Origin: Clostridia bacterium
Lineage (GTDB): Bacteria; Bacillota; Peptococcia; DRI-13; SV3-B141
Assembly: GCA_018433015.1 (NCBI GenBank)
Contig: JAHDSB010000072.1
Coordinates: 1-49,750 of the forward strand
DNA length: 49,750 nt
Direction: 5' to 3'
A program made the position numbers and the translations under genes. This document shows positions 3,707-27,040 of the stretch, one piece after another. Each line of letters begins with the position of its first letter. Position 1 is the first letter of the stretch. Below the pieces are notes generated by a model. It searched no databases. It saw only the letters and a list, made by a program, of their open reading frames with translations, and had not been told where the DNA came from.

Positions 3707-6073
3707 GTGAATAAACTAAATAAAATGCTGTGGCGTGATATTAGAAAGTCATGGGGACAATTTGTTGCTGCTGCTGTAGTAGTTTTTGTAGGGATTACTA
3801 TCTTTGCTGCTATTTATTCTTCATATTTGAATTTAAAGAACTCATTAGAGTATTACTATCGGGAATATAATTTCCTAGATTATTATGCAGAAGCTAGGAA
3901 TATTACACCTGAGGCTATCAAAAAAATAAAAGCCCTGGAGGGCGTAAAAGAAGCTATAGGTAGGATAAGCATTGATGTTGGAGCGGATATGGGAGCTGAA
4001 AAAAAAGCTGTAGTGAGATTAATCTCGTTACCTGCAGATACCCATCCTTCCGTTAATGATGTATATCTTTTATCCGGAGATTATTTTAGTTCAACGGGAA
4101 AGAAAAAGTGTCTTGTGACACAAAAGTTTGCTGAATATTACAATATTAAGAAAGGCGATAAGTTAAAATTAATTATCAATAATAATTTAAATGAGTTTGA
4201 AATCCAGGGATTAGTAGCAAGTCCTGAATACATTTATGCTATTAGATCTGGCATATCTGCATTTCCTTCTCCTGGAGATTTTGGGATTGTATATATTAAG
4301 GATGAGGCTTTTCAAACTTTATTAGGCTACAGAAATATATTTAATGAAATTCATGTGGTATTAGAAGAAGTGGATAAGCCCCAACATATTTTTAATAAGA
4401 TAGAGGATATTTTAAAACCATATGGTTTTATTAAGGGAATTGAACGAAAAGATCAACTTAGTAATTATACAGTGGCAGAAGAGATAAAACAGTTAGAAAG
4501 TTTTGCCTTTATGTTTCCCGCTTTGTTTCTTTTCGTAGCTACTATGATGATTTATATAATACAGAAAAGGTTAATAAATTATCAAAGAACCCTAATTGGA
4601 ACAATAAAAGCCCTCGGCTATAGCAATAAAAGCATTTTTTGGCATTATATAAAATATTCTGTGCTAGTAACTTTAGCAGGGTCATTACCAGGTGTTATTG
4701 CAGGAATATATCTAAGTAAAGGTATTACTATGGAATATAATAAAATATTTAGCATTCCTCTTTTATATCATCGTATTTATGGAGAAGTTTTTTTTGTTGG
4801 TATCTTATTTAGTATGGTTTTTTGCGTCATGGCGGGAATTCAAGCTACTCGAGGTATTTTATCCATTCAACCTGCTCAGGCCATGAGGCCGGAAATACCC
4901 AAGGTGGGTAAAAAGATAGCACTAGAACATATTAAACCATTATGGGCCCGGTTAAGTTTCGGTTGGAAAGTGAGTATACGTAATGTCTTCCGTAATAGGC
5001 AAAGAGCGCTGTTGACCTTTTTGGGGACTGTTTTAACGATAATGTTTTTGCTTGTTTCCATGTTTTTTATGGATTGTGTTGATTATATTTTTAAATTTCA
5101 CTTTTTTGAGTTTCAAAAACAGGATTATAAAGTAGTTTTTAATAGACCAGTAGCTTATGAAGATGTAGTGGAATTGCAAAGAATAAAAGGAATTAAAGAA
5201 GTGGAGCCAATTTTGGAAGTGCCGGTGGAAATGAAAAATGGCTGGCACAAAAAGGAGACTGTATTAGTAGGAATCACAGAGGAAAACTCCCTCTATCGCT
5301 TGAGAGATGAGGAGCTAAATCCCGTCCAGGTTCCTACTAAAGGAATGTTGGTAGCAGAAGCTCTGGCTCAACAATTATCAGTAAAAAAAGGGGATAAATT
5401 AACTCTTAAATTTTTCCTGGGAAATATTGAAGAAAAAGAAGTCCAAGTAGCAGGATTTGTTAAGCAATATGCTGGTTTTATGTGTTATATGAACCTAAAG
5501 GAATTGGGAGTTTTGCTGGAAGAAGGAAAATTTGGAACAGGAGCCTTAATAAAAGTAGAAAAAGGCGCTGCAACATCTGTTGAGAAAGAATTATATGATA
5601 TTCCAGGGGTTGAAAGTATAGAAAGCAGAAATGAGGCATATCATGCTTTGCAAGAGATGATGGCTTTCATGTATATATTTATTTTTTTGCTACTTATTTT
5701 TGGCATAATTATGGGTGTTGCCATAATATTTAATACAACATTAATTAATATTATGGAAAGACGCAGGGAACTAGCATCTTTAAGAGTGATGGGCTATACA
5801 ATTAAGGAAATAGAAAAAACCATCTTTAGAGAAAATGCCCTCATATGTATAATAGCTTTAATACCAGGGATTGCGCTGGGAAAAGCAATGTCCCATCTTT
5901 TTGTCAAACAGTTTGTTAACAAATTGTTTGCTTTGGAGGTAGTTATATTTCCCCGCACATATTTAATTACATTAGTATGTGTCCTAGTATTCGTATTTTT
6001 AGCCCAATGGGCTAGCAGGAGAAATATAAAGTCCTTGGATATGATAGAAGTCCTAAAAAATAGAGAAGGTTAG
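3707..6073 (+). CDS. ABC transporter permease with two FtsX/MacB domains
   Basis: 788 residues starting at GTG, 12 bases after the ATPase stop. An N-terminal membrane segment (about 15-38) is followed by a large extracytoplasmic domain and a first three-helix FtsX unit (about 265-395). A fourth segment near 430-450, a second extracytoplasmic domain and a second FtsX unit (about 650-785) follow. This duplicated layout matches large Gram-positive exporter permeases. It forms the pore for the preceding ATPase and presumably works with the downstream adaptor. Substrate is unknown. Confidence 0.9.
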   Translation: MNKLNKMLWRDIRKSWGQFVAAAVVVFVGITIFAAIYSSYLNLKNSLEYYYREYNFLDYYAEARNITPEAIKKIKALEGVKEAIGRISIDVGADMGAEKKAVVRLISLPADTHPSVNDVYLLSGDYFSSTGKKKCLVTQKFAEYYNIKKGDKLKLIINNNLNEFEIQGLVASPEYIYAIRSGISAFPSPGDFGIVYIKDEAFQTLLGYRNIFNEIHVVLEEVDKPQHIFNKIEDILKPYGFIKGIERKDQLSNYTVAEEIKQLESFAFMFPALFLFVATMMIYIIQKRLINYQRTLIGTIKALGYSNKSIFWHYIKYSVLVTLAGSLPGVIAGIYLSKGITMEYNKIFSIPLLYHRIYGEVFFVGILFSMVFCVMAGIQATRGILSIQPAQAMRPEIPKVGKKIALEHIKPLWARLSFGWKVSIRNVFRNRQRALLTFLGTVLTIMFLLVSMFFMDCVDYIFKFHFFEFQKQDYKVVFNRPVAYEDVVELQRIKGIKEVEPILEVPVEMKNGWHKKETVLVGITEENSLYRLRDEELNPVQVPTKGMLVAEALAQQLSVKKGDKLTLKFFLGNIEEKEVQVAGFVKQYAGFMCYMNLKELGVLLEEGKFGTGALIKVEKGAATSVEKELYDIPGVESIESRNEAYHALQEMMAFMYIFIFLLLIFGIIMGVAIIFNTTLINIMERRRELASLRVMGYTIKEIEKTIFRENALICIIALIPGIALGKAMSHLFVKQFVNKLFALEVVIFPRTYLITLVCVLVFVFLAQWASRRNIKSLDMIEVLKNREG

Positions 6074-6084
6074 GGGTGAGCTGG

Positions 6085-7206
6085 ATGTTAAAACATAAAA
6101 AAGTTGTTTATATATTACTAGGTATAGTAGTAATGGCCATTATTGCCTTAATAAGCAATTATGCAAGACAGCAGACTGTAGATGCTTTTCCAGTCAGGAA
6201 AGGTGAGATACAGAAAATCATAGAAGTACGGGGAATAGTAGAATTAGGAAATAAAGAAACAGTCTATAGCCAGTTAACAGGAACTATTGAGGAATTAAAA
6301 GTAGAAGAGGGAGATAAGGTTCACCCCGGTTTTATAGCTGGAAGTTTTTCATCACAAGATCTGAAGCTGGCACAAGATAAAGCATTAGCCCAGCTTAAAC
6401 ATGCGCAAGCCGTGGAGGCTGCTGCTTGGGAAGAATATACTTATAAAAAAGAATTATATGAAAAGAATAAAGTATTATACGAATCTGGGGCCATACCTAA
6501 ACAGGATTTAAAAGAGCTGGAAACCCAATTAAATATAACTGAATTGAAGGCCCGCGGGGATAAAGCCGCAAGAGAACAAGCGGAAGTAGCATTACAAGAA
6601 ATAACTAACAATATGGAAAAACTGATCATATCTTCAGATTCAGGCGGAGTAATTTTAACAAAATATGTAGAAGAGGGAGCTGTGGTGCAAGCTGGTGCAC
6701 CATTACTAGAAATAGGGGATAATACGACAGTTTATATAAGAGTAGATGTCCTATCGGATGATGTTACGGAGATGGAGCTGGGACAGGAGGCAATAATTTC
6801 CGGTGATGTATTAGGCCTTAGTACAATTAAAGGTAAGATTTATTATATTGCCCCCAAAGCAGAAAAAAGTATCTCTTCTTTAGGGGTTGAACAGCAAAGA
6901 GTTGAAGTGCGCATTAAAATACAGGATATGTTGGAGAAATTTAAAGCAGGCTATGGTGTTGATGTAGATATTGTAATCGGTGAAAAGAAGGATACCTTGT
7001 ATATTCCTGAAAAAGCCATTTTTAAATTAAACGGTACAGATACTGTATTTGTAATAGAAGGAGAAAGAATAGAGCTGAGAACTGTGCAAAAGGGTATAGA
7101 AAATACAGATTATACGGAGGTTCTAGCAGGAGTAGCTGAAGGAGAGCAGGTGGTGCTTGATCCTCCTGAGGATCTAAAACCAGGGATGAGGGTGAGGAGC
7201 GAATAA
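6085..7206 (+). CDS. HlyD/RND-type membrane fusion (adaptor) protein
   Basis: About 373 residues: one N-terminal membrane anchor (residues 6-23), then a lipoyl-like half motif (QLTGTIEELKVEEGDKV), a helical hairpin rich in A, K, E and L (about 105-180), the second lipoyl half (GGVILTKYVEEGAVV) and beta-barrel domains. The open frame begins at GTG 6076, but AGGGGTG at 6072-6078 favours ATG 6085. It is coupled to the permease by an 11-base gap. In a cell without an outer membrane it probably links the permease to extracytoplasmic substrate rather than to TolC. Confidence 0.88.
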   Translation: MLKHKKVVYILLGIVVMAIIALISNYARQQTVDAFPVRKGEIQKIIEVRGIVELGNKETVYSQLTGTIEELKVEEGDKVHPGFIAGSFSSQDLKLAQDKALAQLKHAQAVEAAAWEEYTYKKELYEKNKVLYESGAIPKQDLKELETQLNITELKARGDKAAREQAEVALQEITNNMEKLIISSDSGGVILTKYVEEGAVVQAGAPLLEIGDNTTVYIRVDVLSDDVTEMELGQEAIISGDVLGLSTIKGKIYYIAPKAEKSISSLGVEQQRVEVRIKIQDMLEKFKAGYGVDVDIVIGEKKDTLYIPEKAIFKLNGTDTVFVIEGERIELRTVQKGIENTDYTEVLAGVAEGEQVVLDPPEDLKPGMRVRSE

Positions 7207-19284: not shown

Positions 19285-20982
19285 ATGAATGATCCTAATG
19301 GAATTATCAACGTTGTAATTATTGGAGCTGGAGCTGGCGGCACTTCCATTCTCAAGGCTTTATTAAAAATGGATAAAGTAAATATACTGGGGATAGCTGA
19401 TGTGAATCCTGAAGCTCCCGGTATGCAATTGGCTAAGGAGAAAGGAATAACAACATCCTTAGATTTTAGCACGTTACTTCACGACAAAAGGGTAGGAGTA
19501 ATCATTGAAGCTACAGGGGTTCCGGAGGTGCAAGAAAGAATCAGAAAAGAAAAGTTGCCTCAAGCATCTTTTATGGAATCTGCAGCAGCATATTTGATGA
19601 TTTATCTTATTGATAAGCATGAAGAAATGGTAAAAGTAAAGGAATTGGAGGAGCATATTGGTACTATTTTAAATTCTGCTCAGGAAGGCATTCAAGTGGT
19701 TAATAATAGTGGCAAAGTTATATATGTCAACGATTCTTTTTGTAGGATCACAAAATTGATTCGTGAAGAACGCCTGGGACAGAATATCTTTGATGTATCA
19801 CCCAAAGGGGCTTTGGCGGAGGTATTGCGAACTAAAGAACCCGTCTTTGGCAAGGTTAATATTATCAAAGGTAAGCAGATAGAGGTACTATCTAATGCTT
19901 CCCCTGTTATGGTAGAGGGGGAAATGCGAGGAGCCGTAGTAGTATTTCGCGATATAAGTGATATTAGGAGAATGGCCCAAAAACTTGAAGAGAGTAAAGA
20001 GGTCATAAATTACTTAAAGGAAGAGATTAATAATTTAGTAGCTCCTAAATATTCATTTGCTGATTTAATTGGCAATAATGAAAGATTCTTGAAGTGTATT
20101 AAAATAGCACGTCAAGCTGCAGATAATTTATCTACAGTGTTAATAACGGGAGAAAGCGGTACGGGTAAGGAACTATTTGCTCATGCTATTCACAAAGAAG
20201 GTTCTAGAGCTGATGGACCCTTTATCAAAGTAAATTGTGCTGCCATTCCCGAAACTCTTTTAGAAAGTGAATTGTTTGGTTACGAAAAAGGAGCCTTTAC
20301 GGGTGCGACGAAAGCAAAGATGGGGAAATTTGAACTGGCTAATGGTGGTACTATCTTCCTTGATGAAATTGGAGATATGAATATTGTTCTACAGGCTAAA
20401 TTATTAAGGGTTTTGCAAGAAAAAGAAGTAGAACGACTGGGGAGCAATCGCCCGCAAAAAATAGATGTGCGGATTGTAGCGGCTACTAATCAAAATTTAC
20501 TTAAACATGTAGAGCAGGGCTTATTCCGCCGCGATCTTTATTACAGATTAAATGTAATTAATGTGGATATCCCCCCTTTGCGGGACAGGAAAGATGATGT
20601 ACTGCTCTTAGCCCAGCATATAATCCAAAAATTAAATAAGCGACATGGCAAAGAATGTGTTTTGAGTCAGAAAGGACTAACCCTGTTAGCACGCTATGAT
20701 TGGCCCGGCAATGTACGGGAATTAGAAAATTTGTTAGAACGGGCCGTTATTTTATCGGAAGGAAAAGTTATTAGTATTGAATTAGTGCAATCTTATTTTT
20801 CTGCCAGCAGTTTACATGAGACAGAAGAAATATTATCTTTAGCTGAAATGGAAAAAAGATTAATAAAGAAGGCTCTGGATGTGTATGGTAGGGATTTAGC
20901 AGGAAAGAAAAAGGTGGCTAAAAAGTTAAAGATATCATTAGCTACCTTGTACAATAAGCTTAGCAAATACAAAATGACTTAA
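19285..20982 (+). CDS. Sigma-54 activator with N-terminal Rossmann domain and PAS domain
   Basis: 565 residues. Residues 8-115 are a Rossmann-like NAD(P)-binding domain ([14 protein letters not shown], then D39). A PAS domain covers about 125-225. The AAA+ sigma-54 activation domain follows, with Walker A GESGTGKE 289-296, GAFTGA 336-341 and Walker [11 protein letters not shown] Fis-type helix-turn-helix occupies the last ~45 residues. There is no receiver domain, so it is a one-component sensor, plausibly of redox state or a nucleotide-like ligand. It lies immediately upstream of two operons with sigma-54 promoters and shared enhancer-like sites. Confidence 0.93.
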
Positions 20983-20998
20983 AAAAAGTAGAAGTTTT

Positions 20999-21013
20999 TT
21001 CTAAAATATAGAA
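20999..21013 (+). promoter_or_regulatory. Distal activator site of operon 1
   Basis: TTCTAAAATATAGAA is a perfect TTCTA-N5-TAGAA palindrome ending 132 bp before the TTGG of the operon 1 sigma-54 promoter. The same position in operon 2 holds TTCTAATTATTAGAA. Confidence 0.7.
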
Positions 21014-21029
21014 ACCTTAAATTAAGCAT

Positions 21030-21065
21030 AAAATATGGGGCTGATAATTATCAGTCCCATATTTT
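21030..21065 (+). terminator. Terminator after the sigma-54 activator gene
   Basis: A near-perfect palindrome (arms AAAATATGGGGCTGATAA and TTATCAGTCCCATATTTT, one G-T pair) ends in a T-run 48 bases after the activator stop. Confidence 0.75.
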
Positions 21066-21067
21066 GG

Positions 21068-21082
21068 TTCTAGATATTAAAA
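21068..21082 (+). promoter_or_regulatory. Proximal activator site of operon 1 (degenerate)
   Basis: TTCTAGATATTAAAA has an intact left half-site and a degenerate right half. It starts 69 bases after the distal site and its last base is 63 bases before the TTGG, exactly as for the proximal site of operon 2. Confidence 0.55.
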
Positions 21083-21144
21083 ACTGGAGTCAAGAGAAGA
21101 TATTTAGATCTCTGTAATAGCAAGGGTTTTGTGAATTAGTGATA

Positions 21145-21161
21145 TTGGTACTATAATTGCA
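21145..21161 (+). promoter_or_regulatory. Sigma-54 promoter of operon 1 (permease and hydrolase)
   Basis: TTGGTACTATAATTGCA matches the -24/-12 consensus (TTGG, then TTGCA at correct spacing), 59 bases upstream of the permease start. Confidence 0.82.
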
Positions 21162-21220
21162 ATAATATAAAAATACATAATATTGCTAATATTATAAAAT
21201 CAAGAGGAGGAGGAATATGG

Positions 21221-22574
21221 ATGATTTCAGTTATTATTCCCGTTACGCTTTTATTAGGAATTATTTTAATTAAGCGTATACCTTTTATTGGTGGGGAGAT
21301 CAGGATTGGTCTAGTTGTTGCAGCTTTATCTGCTCTAATTTTAGGTGGTATTTATTCTCCTGTAGAATGGATGAAAGCCTGGCTAAGTGGAATTGACAGA
21401 ATATCCTGGGTTATGGCCTTAGCCTTATTCGGTAGTATCTATGCCGAGTCTCAAATTACCATGGGTACCATGGAAACCGTTTTGAACAGTTTACGGGCTC
21501 GTTTCGGTCGTTCCCCTCGGGGGCTTATTGTTACTGTTATTATCGGATTAACAATAGCCGGGTCTTTATTGGGTGATGCCATAGCAGCTGCCGCCGTTAT
21601 TGGTGTGCTGGTAATTACTATTATGTATGAGATGGGAATGAGACCTGAACAAATTTCCGCTTCTATCGTAATGGGGTCTTGTTTGGGTTCCATTATGCCC
21701 CCTATTTCCCAAGCTCTTTTTTTATCTGCTTCTTTAATGGGATTGGAATCTCCTGACCCCGTATTAAATATAGGATATTTTACTGCCTTAATAGGTGTAT
21801 TTTTAATTTCCCTATATATAACAAGGTGTTTTATTAAAATACCTGCTTTGCCGGATCACTTAATTCCTGAGAAAAGGGCAGGGCAGATTTTAAAAGAAGG
21901 GTGGAAAACCTTAATACCTCTTAGTGTGTTAATTATTATTATTGTTTTACGCTCTGGTTTCGGGATTGAACTATTAAATCTTGTTAATCCTCTTTTTGCT
22001 CCTATCAAGGATGTCCCCATCTTGCAGGGAATAGATTTCGCTGTTGTGAAGGCCATAATTGTCGTGACGCTTATTAGCTATTTCTATGCTCCTGTGCGTA
22101 AAAATGGCTTACAAGTATTAAAAAGAGGCTTAAGTAACGTCAAAACAAGCTTAGGAATTCAAGCGTGTGCAGGTTTTATGATTGGAGCTTTCTATGCAGC
22201 AGGGCAAATTCAAGCTGTGCAAAGTTTTGCTCAGGGCTTAAGCGAACATGTTTTAAAAATAGGAGGGGCCTTGTCTTTAATGCTGGTGGGGATGTTGACG
22301 GGCTCGCAAACTTACAGCCCAAACGTCGATATTTACTTTCTTTGGACCGGCCCTGCAGGCCATAGGCGTAGACCCTGTTAAAGTTGCCATAGCCGGCGGT
22401 CATTTAGCTTGTGCAGGGGAAGGATTTCCTCCCGCATGCTTAACTACTTTCGTGGTAGCGGGACTTGTAGGGGGAATTATTAACAAAAAAGTTGATCCCT
22501 TGCGTTCCATGTTTTATTCCAGCTTTTTGTGTATCTATTTCCTAATAGTAGGGATCTTCTTTATGTATATATGA
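21221..22574 (+). CDS. DctM-like (TRAP large-subunit family) permease, frameshifted
   Basis: A polytopic membrane protein resembling TRAP large permeases, with tandem hydrophobic helices and motifs such as GSLLGDAIAAAAVIG and GSCLGSIMPPISQ. The first frame ends at 22381 with an aberrant tail after GSQT. If one T at 22312-22313 is skipped, the next frame reads TAQTSIFTFFGPALQAIG and runs to TGA 22574. This restores about 450 residues, the usual family length. It is either a true frameshift or a one-base assembly error. No DctP/DctQ genes are near. It is first in operon 1, with GAGGAGGAGG as ribosome site. Confidence 0.75.
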
Positions 22575-22591
22575 TGTGAGGAGGTTTTATA

Positions 22592-23368
22592 GTGTCTTAT
22601 AAAAAAGAAAAGGTTATATTCCAGGCTTTTGATGGTACGAATATTAATTGTTTGAAATTAACGCCTACTCTTAAAGGCGCACTACGGGTACCGGCGGTAT
22701 TGTTTCAGCCGGGTAATAGGATGACCCCTGATGACTATTTATGGCTTTTAGAGCCCCTGGCCCGGGAAGGTTGGTTAGTTTATGGTATTTATCAGAGAGG
22801 CCATGGTTCGGGAGTCCCTGATTGTAATGATCGAGGAGGGCCCATACAACAACAAGATTTGCAGCTGGCGTTAGATTTGGTCAAACGAGATGATTTAGTG
22901 GATACAGAAAGAGTTGCTTTAGTGGGGCATTCTAATGGTGGTCATATGATACAAAGGCTGGCTGTGCAAGAAAGTGTAAAATGTCTTGTACCTATGTCTC
23001 AGATTTCTGATTGGTATCTTTTTGTTTCTTCTTCTCAAGATTATCTACCGGATTATTATAAGGCAGTTACGGAAGAATTTGGTGGTAGCCCGGAAGAAAA
23101 TCCTCAGCCTTATTGGGAACGGTCTTGTTTACATTTAGCTGAGCAAATCGCAATTCCTGTCTTAACAATAGTGGGCGGGGATGATACTACTACACCACCT
23201 CATTTAAGTCGGTTAATGCACGAAGCCTTGGTAAAAGGTGGGAATCAGAGGGCTGAAATGGCGGTGATCCCTGGTGTTGGTCACTTCTATGAGGTTTATG
23301 CCTTTGATGGATATTTGACGAAGAAAGTTGCTCAAATAGTAGTTGATTGGCTGAAAAAAATTCTGTAG
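22592..23368 (+). CDS. Alpha/beta hydrolase
   Basis: 258 residues starting at GTG after GAGGAGG. The nucleophile elbow GHSNGG holds S114. The likely acid is in GGDDTTTPP (about 197) and the histidine in GVGHFYEV (about 236), the layout of prolyl-oligopeptidase and dienelactone-hydrolase relatives. No signal peptide, so it acts in the cytoplasm. It is second in operon 1 after the permease, so it may cleave an ester or amide of the imported compound. The substrate is unknown. Confidence 0.85.
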   Translation: MSYKKEKVIFQAFDGTNINCLKLTPTLKGALRVPAVLFQPGNRMTPDDYLWLLEPLAREGWLVYGIYQRGHGSGVPDCNDRGGPIQQQDLQLALDLVKRDDLVDTERVALVGHSNGGHMIQRLAVQESVKCLVPMSQISDWYLFVSSSQDYLPDYYKAVTEEFGGSPEENPQPYWERSCLHLAEQIAIPVLTIVGGDDTTTPPHLSRLMHEALVKGGNQRAEMAVIPGVGHFYEVYAFDGYLTKKVAQIVVDWLKKIL

Positions 23369-23378
23369 TATTTTTAAG

Positions 23379-23404
23379 AAAAAGCCGTCTTGTACGGCTT
23401 TTTT
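23379..23404 (+). terminator. Terminator of operon 1
   Basis: AAAAAGCCGT / ACGGCTTTTT with a 5-base loop and a terminal T-run, 10 bases after the hydrolase stop. Confidence 0.92.
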
Positions 23405-23421
23405 AAATTAGAAGAGTTTTG

Positions 23422-23436
23422 TTCTAAATATTAAAA
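23422..23436 (+). promoter_or_regulatory. Third, degenerate activator-like site of operon 2
   Basis: TTCTAAATATTAAAA is nearly identical to the proximal site of operon 1 (TTCTAGATATTAAAA). It starts 20 bases before the distal site of operon 2. Confidence 0.4.
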
Positions 23437-23441
23437 TCATA

Positions 23442-23456
23442 TTCTAATTATTAGAA
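23442..23456 (+). promoter_or_regulatory. Distal activator site of operon 2
   Basis: TTCTAATTATTAGAA is a perfect palindrome whose last base is 132 bases before the TTGG at 23588, the same distance as in operon 1. Confidence 0.7.
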
Positions 23457-23510
23457 GGGTGCTAAAAAGAACATTATTATTCATATATAAAAATATAAGA
23501 AAATTTAGTC

Positions 23511-23525
23511 TTCTAAAATGTAGAA
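23511..23525 (+). promoter_or_regulatory. Proximal activator site of operon 2
   Basis: TTCTAAAATGTAGAA (TTCTA-N5-TAGAA) starts 69 bases after the distal site, and its last base is 63 bases before the sigma-54 -24 element. Confidence 0.7.
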
Positions 23526-23587
23526 TGTTTAGTAAGGCAGTAAAAAGTAAAAGCCTTGCGGCAGTAGGTTGCTGGAAGGTTATATAA

Positions 23588-23604
23588 TTGGCACAAATAT
23601 TGCT
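23588..23604 (+). promoter_or_regulatory. Sigma-54 promoter of operon 2 (dehydrogenase)
   Basis: TTGGCACAAATATTGCT is an almost ideal -24/-12 element (TTGGCAC-N5-TTGCT), 73 bases upstream of the first dehydrogenase gene. Confidence 0.9.
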
Positions 23605-23677: not shown

Positions 23678-23995
23678 ATGAGAGTAAAGAAACATCCTAT
23701 TTTAGAGGAGGATACCAGAGTTCCTGACGCTATCATTATAGTTGATGGCAAGGAAATACCTGCTAAGGAAGGAGAACCTATAGCAGCAGCACTTTTAGCG
23801 GCGGGTATTCGTAAATTCCGTTATACAGCTAAAGAAGGAAAGCCGAGAGGTATCTTCTGTGGGATTGGACGTTGTACTGATTGTACTATGACGGTAGACG
23901 GCCAGCCCAATGTTCGTACTTGTGTAACTCCGGTAAGAAACGGAATGATAGTTGAGACGCAAAAAGGTCTGGGAAGGTGGAGTGATGAACAATGA
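23678..23995 (+). CDS. [2Fe-2S] subunit of multimeric dehydrogenase (HcnA / SoxA N-terminal type)
   Basis: 105 residues with cluster ligands C61, C66, C69 and C82 (CGIGRCTDC, then TC), as in HcnA of hydrogen cyanide synthase and the N-terminal part of sarcosine oxidase alpha. It should relay electrons between the two flavin subunits. It is the first gene of a five-gene operon; its stop overlaps the next start by 4 bases (ATGA). Confidence 0.88.
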   Translation: MRVKKHPILEEDTRVPDAIIIVDGKEIPAKEGEPIAAALLAAGIRKFRYTAKEGKPRGIFCGIGRCTDCTMTVDGQPNVRTCVTPVRNGMIVETQKGLGRWSDEQ

Positions 23996-25089
23996 AGAAA
24001 ACACAGACTGCTATAATTGGAGCTGGACCTGCCGGTTTAGCAGCAGCTATAGAAGTAGCTAAAGCTGGGGGAAAAGTTACATTAATTGATGAAAACGGAC
24101 GGCCTGGAGGACAGCTCTTTAAACAAATTCATAAATTTTTCGGTTCCAGGGAACATAGAGCGGGAACACGGGGTTTTAATATAGGTCAGCAGTTGCTTAA
24201 GGAAACAGAAGATTTGGGAGTAGAAGTCTTATTAGATTCTCCCGTATACGGTCTGTTTCCTGATAATATTATTAGTTATTTGCATCAAGGAAAAGAACAA
24301 GGCCTGCAAGCCGAAAAAATAATTATAGCTACCGGGGCAACAGAAAATCCCTTGGCTTTTCCTGGGATCACTTTGCCCGGAGTAATGGGAGCAGGGGCAG
24401 CCCAAACAATGATTAATGTGAACAGAGTTTTACCAGGCAAAAAAATATTAATGATTGGGTCCGGAAATGTGGGATTAATTGTTTCTTATCAGTTGATGCA
24501 GGCTGGGGCAGAAGTTGTAGCTTTAATTGAGGGAGCACCTCAAATAGGGGGCTATGGGGTCCATGCAGCTAAGATTAGAAGAGCCGGAGTACCCATTTAT
24601 GTATCTCATACAGTGAAAAAAGTTATAGGGTCAAATGAGGTAGAAGGTGCTGAAATAGTTGCCTTGGATAATAAATGGCAAATGATTCCTGGTACGGAGC
24701 AGGTTTTAGATGTTGACACTGTCTGTATCGCAGTAGGCTTAACGCCTTTAACGGAATTAGCTTGGATGATGGGATGTGAATTTACATTTGTACCTACTCT
24801 TGGTGGCCATGTTCCTAAGCATAACCGGGATATGCAAACTACCTTATCGGATGTATATATAGCCGGGGATATTTCCGGGGTTGAAGAGGCCAGTACAGCT
24901 ATGGAAGAAGGTCGTTTAGCAGGCATAGCTTGTTCTGAATCCTTAGGTTTATACTCCCCTGAAAAAGCAGCAGAGTTGAAACGTGATGTGTGGAACCGCA
25001 TGGATACTCTACGAACGGGTTCTTTTGGAGAAAAGCGACGGGATGCTAAAGAAAGTCTTATTAAACAATCGATAGGAGGGCTAGCATGA
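23992..25089 (+). CDS. FAD/NAD(P)-binding oxidoreductase subunit (HcnB / SoxA-like)
   Basis: 365 residues. The N-terminal FAD site GAGPAGLAAA is followed by ENGRPGGQL, the central nucleotide site GSGNVGL and the C-terminal FAD motif VYIAGDISG. It resembles HcnB, opine oxidase subunit A and the middle of sarcosine oxidase alpha, and in archaeal proline dehydrogenase complexes the NADH-active alpha subunit. It probably passes electrons to or from NAD(P). It overlaps the next gene by 4 bases. Confidence 0.88.
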   Translation: MKKTQTAIIGAGPAGLAAAIEVAKAGGKVTLIDENGRPGGQLFKQIHKFFGSREHRAGTRGFNIGQQLLKETEDLGVEVLLDSPVYGLFPDNIISYLHQGKEQGLQAEKIIIATGATENPLAFPGITLPGVMGAGAAQTMINVNRVLPGKKILMIGSGNVGLIVSYQLMQAGAEVVALIEGAPQIGGYGVHAAKIRRAGVPIYVSHTVKKVIGSNEVEGAEIVALDNKWQMIPGTEQVLDVDTVCIAVGLTPLTELAWMMGCEFTFVPTLGGHVPKHNRDMQTTLSDVYIAGDISGVEEASTAMEEGRLAGIACSESLGLYSPEKAAELKRDVWNRMDTLRTGSFGEKRRDAKESLIKQSIGGLA

Positions 25090-25595
25090 ATAAGGGTGTA
25101 AGATATACAGGTATGCCATCACTGGAAGAACTGCAAAATTCTCCGGGAACACCAAGCTTAGAACGCATAGAAAAAGGATCTGTAGCCTTTATTGAATGTG
25201 TTCAGGATATACCTTGTAATCCTTGTGAAAAAGCTTGCCCCTTCGGAGCGATAACGGTGGGAAACCCCATTACTAATTTACCTAGTTTAGATGAAGAGAA
25301 ATGTACGGGTTGTGGGGTCTGTATTGCCAAATGTCCTGGATTGGCCATCTTCAGAATTCATAAAAATTATACTGATGATACGGCTTTAGTAGAATTTCCT
25401 TATGAATATTATCCCTTGCCGCAGAAGGGTGAAGAAGTACCATGTGGAGATAGAGCGGGGGAATTTGTGACCATGGGTAAGGTTTCGTCCGTAAAAAATC
25501 CTAAAGCCTATGATGGAACCTCCGTAATTACAGTAGAAATACCCAAAGAGTTTTACAAAGATGTGCGGACAATCTGTCGAAAGGGGATGAAGTAG
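25086..25595 (+). CDS. Ferredoxin-like subunit with two [4Fe-4S] motifs
   Basis: 169 residues. One cluster motif is C44-x2-C47-x3-C51-P, with C38 ahead of it, and the other is C73-x2-C76-x2-C79-x3-C83-P. After the ferredoxin domain comes a ~85-residue extension without cysteine pairs until C167. This subunit is absent from aerobic HcnABC and marks an anaerobic version of the complex, matching the gamma-type ferredoxin subunit of archaeal dye-linked proline dehydrogenase. Confidence 0.85.
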   Translation: MNKGVRYTGMPSLEELQNSPGTPSLERIEKGSVAFIECVQDIPCNPCEKACPFGAITVGNPITNLPSLDEEKCTGCGVCIAKCPGLAIFRIHKNYTDDTALVEFPYEYYPLPQKGEEVPCGDRAGEFVTMGKVSSVKNPKAYDGTSVITVEIPKEFYKDVRTICRKGMK

Positions 25596-25874
25596 ATGAG
25601 TTGTTCCGATGATAAAATATATATTTGCCGCTGTGAAGAAGTTACCAGAGAAGATATAGAAAAAGCCATTGCAGATGGTGCTACTACTTTAGCCGGTATA
25701 AAAAAACGTACCCATGCCGGGATGGGACTTTGTCAAGGACGTACTTGCAGCAAATTAATAACCAGAATATTAGCAGAGCATGGCATAAAACCCGCTGATG
25801 TTTATCCTCAGACTTCTCGGCCACCTGTTAGGACAGCCAAAATAGGTGATTTTGTAGAGGAGGATGACGTATGA
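25596..25874 (+). CDS. BFD-like [2Fe-2S] subunit
   Basis: 92 residues with C11-x-C13 and C46-x4-C51, the ligand set of bacterioferritin-associated-ferredoxin (Fer2_BFD) domains. In HcnB-type proteins this domain is fused at the C-terminus; here it is a separate gene. It starts right after the ferredoxin stop, and its stop overlaps the next gene by 4 bases. Confidence 0.87.
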   Translation: MSCSDDKIYICRCEEVTREDIEKAIADGATTLAGIKKRTHAGMGLCQGRTCSKLITRILAEHGIKPADVYPQTSRPPVRTAKIGDFVEEDDV

Positions 25875-27040
25875 ATAAAAAAGCAGATGTACTTGTTATA
25901 GGCGGGGGAGTCATTGGTACTTCTATTGCTTATTATCTAGCCAAGCAGAAGAAAAAAGTTATTTTAGTTGAACGCTATGACCATGCGGCGGGAGCAAGTG
26001 GTTCTTGTGATCAGATGATTATAATGCAGTCTAAGAACCCCGGTGTACATTTACAATATGCTTTGGCCAGTGCGGAAATGTATAAGACTCTAAGCCAAGA
26101 ACTTGATTATGATATTGGTTATCATAAAGAAGGCGGCATGATCTTAATTGAAACGTCAGAAGAAATGGAAGTAATGGAGGACTTTGTAGCCAGACAGAAA
26201 GAGATTGGTTTGCAGGTGGAAATACTAACACGTAAGGAAGCAGCTAAGCATCAGAGGGGGCTAGCTGAACATTTGGTTGGCGCTACCTATAGTCCCCAAG
26301 ATGCTCATATAGATCCCATGAAACTCAACTTGGGCTTTGCTTATGCTGCTAAAAAGTTAGGAGTAGAAATTTTATTAAATACAGAAGTTACCGGAATAAT
26401 ACAGCAAGGGAATAAAGTAACAGGAGTAGAAACTAATCAAGGGACGATTTTGGCACCTTTAGTAATAAATGCGGCAGGAGCTTGGGCTCCACTAATTGGC
26501 CAGATGGTAGGTTTGGAGCTTCCCATTAAGCCGCGGCGTGGTCAAATAGCAGTTTCCGAACCGGTAGCCCCTTATGTAAAAGGAGATGTTCTTTCAGCTC
26601 GTTATATAGTAGCCAAATATAATCCTGATATCCTAGAGAAATCAGATGATAGAGCTGTACAGTTGGGAGTAGGATTAGCTCTGAGCCAAACGGAAAAAGG
26701 AAATATATTGATTGGAGCTACCCGGGAATTTGTGGGTTATGATTTAGGAAATACAAGGGAAGGTATAAAAGAGGTATTGAAAAATGCTACTCGCCTTGTT
26801 CCCGGATTAAAGAAAATGAACTTTATTAGAGTAATGTCCGGAGTGAGACCTTATACTCCTGATGGTTTACCTCTGGTTGGTTTTGTGAAAGGTCTAGAAG
26901 GATTCTTTATGGCTGCTGGACACGAAGGAGACGGCCTAGCTCTGGCCCCTGTAACAGGAAAGATGGTTGCTGATATTATTGAGGAAGGTAAAACCTTTAT
27001 GGATGTCAGCGCTATCGATCCTAACCGTTTTAATTTATAA
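25871..27040 (+). CDS. FAD-dependent amine/imino acid dehydrogenase subunit (DAO family)
   Basis: 389 residues. The FAD motif is GGGVIGTSIAYYLAKQKKKV. An AGGAGCSGSCDQM-like flavin loop region (GASGSCDQMI) and the C-terminal DAO segment (TPDGLPLVG, then GHEGDGLALAP) are typical of glycine, sarcosine, D-amino acid and proline oxidising enzymes and of HcnC. It is the likely substrate-oxidising subunit. A sarcosine, proline, hydroxyproline or opine substrate cannot be decided from sequence. A terminator follows. Confidence 0.87.
   Translation: MNKKADVLVIGGGVIGTSIAYYLAKQKKKVILVERYDHAAGASGSCDQMIIMQSKNPGVHLQYALASAEMYKTLSQELDYDIGYHKEGGMILIETSEEMEVMEDFVARQKEIGLQVEILTRKEAAKHQRGLAEHLVGATYSPQDAHIDPMKLNLGFAYAAKKLGVEILLNTEVTGIIQQGNKVTGVETNQGTILAPLVINAAGAWAPLIGQMVGLELPIKPRRGQIAVSEPVAPYVKGDVLSARYIVAKYNPDILEKSDDRAVQLGVGLALSQTEKGNILIGATREFVGYDLGNTREGIKEVLKNATRLVPGLKKMNFIRVMSGVRPYTPDGLPLVGFVKGLEGFFMAAGHEGDGLALAPVTGKMVADIIEEGKTFMDVSAIDPNRFNL

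Follow-up and report, generated by a model that had tools for sequence, protein, structure and literature searches.

The window analysed here, a 49,750-nucleotide stretch of a Clostridia bacterium genome, contains the gene of an orphan sigma-54 activator followed by two operons (Table 1). Operon 1 encodes a permease and an alpha/beta hydrolase, operon 2 the five subunits of a dehydrogenase. The permease gene is frameshifted in the region 22300-22575, and homology to the permease runs on in another frame to about position 22575: the first 377 residues of an intact paralogue encoded on contig C5 match one frame, and its residues 363-450 match another. The frameshift may be real decay or an assembly error.

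Operon 2 brings together DAO, Fer2, flavoprotein and BFD components, which identifies its product as a heteromeric DAO-type amino/imino-acid dehydrogenase. The enzyme shares these parts, including the DAO-type beta subunit (for which 1y56_B is the best solved relative), with heteromeric sarcosine oxidase and with proline and hydroxyproline dehydrogenases. It differs from these enzymes in that its subunits are split over five genes and an extra ferredoxin is present. In NCBIfam no substrate-specific family for the dehydrogenase subunits scored above its cut-off.

Table 1. Genes, activator sites and promoter elements in the window
Feature	Position	Strand	Sequence	Remarks
Activator gene	19285..20982	+		565 aa; Rossmann-like, PAS, sigma-54 AAA+, Fis-type HTH
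Outer site A, promoter 1	20979..20993	+	TTAAAAAAAGTAGAA	2 mismatches; overlaps activator stop codon
Site B, promoter 1	20999..21013	+	TTCTAAAATATAGAA	perfect; 132 bp to TTGG
Inverted repeat, then T-rich DNA	21030..21065	+		between sites B and C; read from sequence
Site C, promoter 1	21068..21082	+	TTCTAGATATTAAAA	1 mismatch; 63 bp to TTGG
Sigma-54 -24/-12 promoter 1	21145..21161	+	TTGGTACTATAATTGCA	1 mismatch to TTGGCAC-N5-TTGCW
Permease ORF, operon 1	21221..22381	+		386 aa; frameshift ends it early
Alpha/beta hydrolase, second gene of operon 1	22592..23368	+
Outer site A, promoter 2	23422..23436	+	TTCTAAATATTAAAA	1 mismatch
Site B, promoter 2	23442..23456	+	TTCTAATTATTAGAA	perfect; 132 bp to TTGG
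Site C, promoter 2	23511..23525	+	TTCTAAAATGTAGAA	perfect; 63 bp to TTGG
Sigma-54 -24/-12 promoter 2	23588..23604	+	TTGGCACAAATATTGCT	0 mismatches to TTGGCAC-N5-TTGCW
Fer2_4 [2Fe-2S] subunit, dehydrogenase operon	23678..23995	+
Pyridine-nucleotide-disulphide-type flavoprotein subunit	23992..25089	+		sarcosine oxidase alpha / hydroxyproline dehydrogenase alpha-like
4Fe-4S ferredoxin-like subunit	25086..25595	+
BFD-like [2Fe-2S] subunit	25596..25874	+
DAO-family FAD dehydrogenase subunit	25871..27040	+

Both operons are preceded by a GG-N10-GC -24/-12 element, and the same genome has an rpoN gene on contig C39 (PF04552, 212.9 bits); together these features identify the elements at 21145 and 23588 as sigma-54-dependent promoters. 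An earlier, sequence-only reading of the window had located both elements exactly. It had also described upstream sites B and C, 69 bp apart and ending 132 and 63 bp before TTGG, and these distances are exact at both promoters. Three of the four sites match TTCTA-N5-TAGAA without mismatch (20999, 23442 and 23511) and the fourth, at 21068, with one; the window has no further perfect copy, and all three lie within the two promoter regions. The count of two sites per promoter, with the copy at 23422 as an extra of operon 2, was correct in its coordinates but incomplete. In a scan allowing two mismatches each promoter has a third, outer site A, 20 bp upstream of site B, and the counterpart at operon 1 lies at 20979. 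The distances of A, B and C from the -24 element (last site base to TTGG) are 152, 132 and 63 bp at both promoters. Since the A-B-C layout was found again in relatives, we treat the three sites as a unit. The inverted repeat between sites B and C of promoter 1 is probably the terminator of the activator gene, so that the enhancer would straddle it. A similar terminator-like repeat lies between sites B and C at two other loci (L037 and L042).

Array spacing within and between species

In the 3.75 Mb genome, site pairs with a gap of 40-68 bp were found at only four promoters, of which the window and contig C5 hold two each, and the reversed-pattern control over the whole genome gave no match. 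The C5 arrays, at 154/133/63 bp before the promoter, precede permeases that share about 64-65% identity with the window permease and 87% with each other, with a racemase-like gene (Asp/Glu-type) between them; no activator gene is present on C5. Array geometry is nearly identical throughout this genome, the distance from site C to the promoter being 63 bp at 4/4 promoters and the B-C distance 69 or 70 bp. Between species the two distances range from 42 to 106 bp and from 57 to 88 bp, respectively, and conservation of the exact spacing across the family was rejected. The class genomes that have a close activator orthologue keep the sites beside it, but the exact spacing noted by the earlier reading is specific to this genome.

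The identical spacing could be a relic of promoter duplication, one array having been copied to each operon too recently to drift. The variation between species agrees with such an origin, as do the C5 promoters, which are clear duplicates in front of their closely related permeases. However, no similarity is detectable any longer between the spacer of promoter 1 and that of promoter 2, as the earlier reading had also stated (42/121 identities compared with 35.2 in shuffles, a value reached in 196 of 2000 shuffles), while the sites and distances are intact. In addition, the two arrays of another genome (G310), with similar B-C distances, precede different genes. Divergence of the spacers around intact sites and distances argues that the spacing was held after any copying, and we regard duplication as a possible but rather doubtful explanation of the identity.

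The C-promoter and B-C distances cluster at steps of about 10.5-11 bp. Rayleigh tests, applied post hoc to rows that share ancestry, gave p values of about 0.01 (C-promoter) and 0.0002 (B-C) with this genome counted once, and, again post hoc and with a few weak arrays included, 0.04 and 0.02 on distinct values. Because the test was picked after the data had been seen, the rows share ancestry and some arrays are weak, conservation of helical phase between species is suggestive only. Helical phasing would fit the DNA looping that activators bring about from enhancers (review PMC7057263).

The activator as candidate binding protein

The product of the 19285 gene has a sigma-54 activation domain (Sigma54_activat PF00158, 245.8 bits, cut-off 20.2) with a readable GAFTGA motif, a PAS domain and a C-terminal, Fis-type HTH_8 domain (24.4 bits, cut-off 22), the domain features of a bacterial sigma-54 enhancer-binding protein. 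Its best NCBIfam match was the equivalog of PrdR, the sigma-54 activator of clostridial proline reductase (NF041552), but the score of 458 bits is under the cut-off of 795, and by this cut-off the protein is not PrdR itself. The two activators have the PAS-AAA+-Fis architecture in common over residues 115-563. They differ in their targets and in their sites, which for PrdR are TGT-N10-12-ACA in the published reconstruction (PMC6615313) and here TTCTA-N5-TAGAA.

A search for site pairs in this genome and its relatives, which the sequence-only reading had proposed, covered 46 whole genomes from the class. When no more than one mismatch was allowed, only nine places were found, the four promoters of this genome and a single place per genome in five relatives, and all five of the latter adjoin orthologues of the 19285 activator; the reversed pattern gave no match across the 46 genomes. 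Outside G000, G001, G011, G013, G017, G023 and G031, the remaining 39 class genomes had no pair match, and no close activator orthologue was found in those of them that were scanned with the activator. Absence of the sites, at pair stringency, from class genomes lacking an orthologue suggests that sites and activator belong together. Perfect pairs detect 3 of the 7 orthologue-bearing genomes and pairs with one mismatch 6; the seventh, G001, was recognized by direct scan. Counting this genome, the activator has an adjoining array in 7/7 class genomes in which a close orthologue is present.

Among 42 activators placed in a tree, those with an array have the recognition helix ISLAT[LF]YNK, and no promoter-anchored array was found in lineages with the helix SLTCLYDK, SLQTLYNI, SLSTLYNK or SLSTLY[LY]K. 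A scan without the promoter requirement also separates the helix groups, with exceptions. Two loci (L184 and L194) keep the helix, yet the scan for nearby arrays was no better than in shuffles, and several other helix-keeping loci have weak arrays. Among loci with a changed helix, L046 has a site triple that scores above its shuffles but is not arranged like a normal array, and the scores of L045 and L048 are marginal, near the top of their shuffles. The correlation speaks for the activator as the protein that binds the sites, short of proof. Recurrence of the sites beside orthologues in other genera and families, together with their tracking of the helix, likewise favours the earlier proposal that they are enhancers of the 19285 activator family. 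Beside the SLSTLYNK activators of L045 (8870-9300) and L046 we observed TTCTA/TAGAA half-sites with N6 and N8 spacers, possibly a shifted DNA code.

Assignment of the sites to the activator is comparative, and the palindromes could instead bind another regulator, for example a repressor, with the activator using other sites; many repressor families typically recognize AT-rich palindromes of 15 bp. Against this reading, the arrays are found in front of -24/-12 elements and next to activator orthologues in many families, they correlate with the recognition helix, and no second regulator gene was constantly linked in the loci read. The position of the pair places beside activator orthologues and the helix correlation led us to reject this reading as improbable.

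Similarly improbable is the alternative that a paralogous activator, encoded on C13, C186 or C197, serves the regulon in place of the 19285 gene. The C13 and C197 helices are related to that of the 19285 protein, and the C13 helix (SIATLYNKI) could share its sites; the C186 gene adjoins a permease and a DAO gene. However, no arrays were found near C13, C118, C156, C197 or C186, whereas the 19285 gene adjoins an array here and in relatives. The C186 locus (L043, 167-4857) encodes another homologue of the activator, with about 49% identity and one in-frame TAA in the match, which has its own permease and DAO gene alongside, no TTCTA arrays and the changed helix SLTCLYDK.

That the arrays are chance AT-rich palindromes of an AT-rich genome is hardly conceivable: sites with two mismatches are no commoner in the window than in shuffles, so that the evidence lies in the near-perfect sites, their pairing, spacing and promoter context, but a combined scan for array plus promoter found no match in 3.8 Mb of shuffled sequence and genome-wide pairs are confined to these loci. 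Chance was rejected on the shuffled-sequence scan and the class-wide pair search, as the earlier reading had argued from the exact spacing.

The proposed regulon and its relatives

On the observed array, promoters, genome-wide specificity, conservation, helix correlation and sigma-54 gene we base the following model, which we hold with high confidence. The palindromes would be enhancer sites bound by the 19285 activator. Each target promoter carries an array in which A and B lie two helical turns apart and C about 57-90 bp further downstream, 42-106 bp before the -24/-12 element. The array-bound activator would loop to RNA polymerase-sigma54 at the -24/-12 element and drive open-complex formation. 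There would be four targets: the promoters at 21145 (permease, hydrolase) and 23588 (five-gene amino/imino-acid dehydrogenase) and the two on C5 (permeases with the racemase between). Because permease and dehydrogenase promoters carry the same array, the cell would switch the uptake of a single amino- or imino-acid-like substrate together with its oxidation. A new sigma-54 regulon, with the known sigma-54 enhancer mechanism as its proposed mode of action, is well supported by comparison.

The earlier reading placed permease, hydrolase and dehydrogenase in one regulon, and this holds for permease and dehydrogenase. In G001, G011, G013 and G031 the activator-adjacent array precedes the same five-gene dehydrogenase operon; the G001 array is built of weaker sites. 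In G017 and G023 the arrays beside the activator are situated at the ends of contigs, and unlinked permease genes also carry arrays. In L051 (Firmicutes bacterium UBA3567) an uninterrupted series of dehydrogenase, permease and racemase genes follows the activator and a single array. G310 (L172) has a permease on one side of the activator and Fer2/flavoprotein genes on the other, each with its own array, a layout that independently supports the permease-dehydrogenase regulon. Two perfect sites precede racemase and dehydrogenase genes in L076 (Lawsonibacter MAG), where the activator is divergent. No array was found at the nearest permease homologue of G011 and G013; that of G011 (L204, contig C9, 2563-8432) adjoins a hydantoinase-like gene and a gene for a large Fe-S protein resembling xanthine/aldehyde dehydrogenase. 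Conservation does not extend to the hydrolase: it had no match in the regulon loci searched elsewhere, and is therefore probably a passenger.

Homologues of the activator (E <= 1e-120) are present in 43/398 sampled genomes of the phylum, so that the family extends through the Bacillota. A promoter-anchored scan of 26 phylum loci (L172-L197), picked by the activator alone, with a site model trained only on class-level arrays, found arrays at 16, none of them equalled in 60 shuffles; the fits in L180, L193 and L196 are weak. The targets, named from sequence likeness, are the DAO dehydrogenase at L174, L175, L181 and L190, class I fumarase at, for example, L178, L187 and L192, succinyl-CoA synthetase at L191 and succinate dehydrogenase at L180. 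In L208 (G312), which has a Rossmann-PAS-AAA+-Fis activator homologue with the helix ISLATLYNK, an array at 184/166/99 heads genes for fumarase (confirmed by NCBIfam), SucC/D, methylmalonyl-CoA mutase, epimerase, carboxyltransferase and malate dehydrogenase. The presence of the array before dehydrogenase, fumarase and mmc genes indicates that one DNA code serves different pathways.

In gene composition the L208 cluster behind activator and array is the same as the mmc cluster of Pelotomaculum (PTH_1356-1369), which is induced in syntrophic coculture (PMC6046458). The mmc-cluster group shares with the 19285 system a homologous activator, the recognition helix and the three-site array; there the array precedes fumarase/mmc genes, here permease and amino/imino-acid dehydrogenase genes instead. 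Kosaka is said to have noted, in 2006, a putative regulator within the Pelotomaculum mmc cluster.

The reconstruction of Clostridiales sigma-54 regulons defined 39 activator groups (PMC6615313). These regulons have, as here, the activator beside its targets, multiple upstream sites, amino-acid catabolism genes and permeases. Table 1 of that paper lists no group with dehydrogenase-permease-racemase or fumarase/mmc content, and the activator group is apparently common yet undescribed. The code of three TTCTA-N5-TAGAA sites before a -24/-12 element offers a way to find the regulons of this group in unculturable anaerobes, and its presence before fumarase/mmc clusters suggests a testable mechanism by which anaerobes that oxidise propionate might turn on their central pathway.

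The N-terminal domain of the activator was modelled with confidence as a Rossmann-like fold (AlphaFold2, 21 homologues, pLDDT 92.6), and among solved folds it most closely resembles NAD(P)-dependent oxidoreductase domains, with a Rex-family repressor among the listed matches. Residues G14, G16, G18, G19 and D39 are invariant; such a glycine pattern with an Asp is the usual NAD-binding signature. An NAD-type Rossmann fold is predicted, and our guess is that the inducing signal may be NAD(H)-linked. The G031 activator does not have the domain, which is therefore not needed for the DNA code. A widespread Bacillota family in which an NAD(H) Rossmann sensor and a helically phased three-site enhancer couple redox state to anaerobic oxidation is an unlikely, speculative extension; if true, it would control fumarase/mmc genes in syntrophic-type propionate oxidisers and the amino-acid dehydrogenase here. 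In the Lawsonibacter cluster (L076), whose activator lacks the Rossmann domain, a stand-alone DapB-like protein is encoded at 5524-6264.
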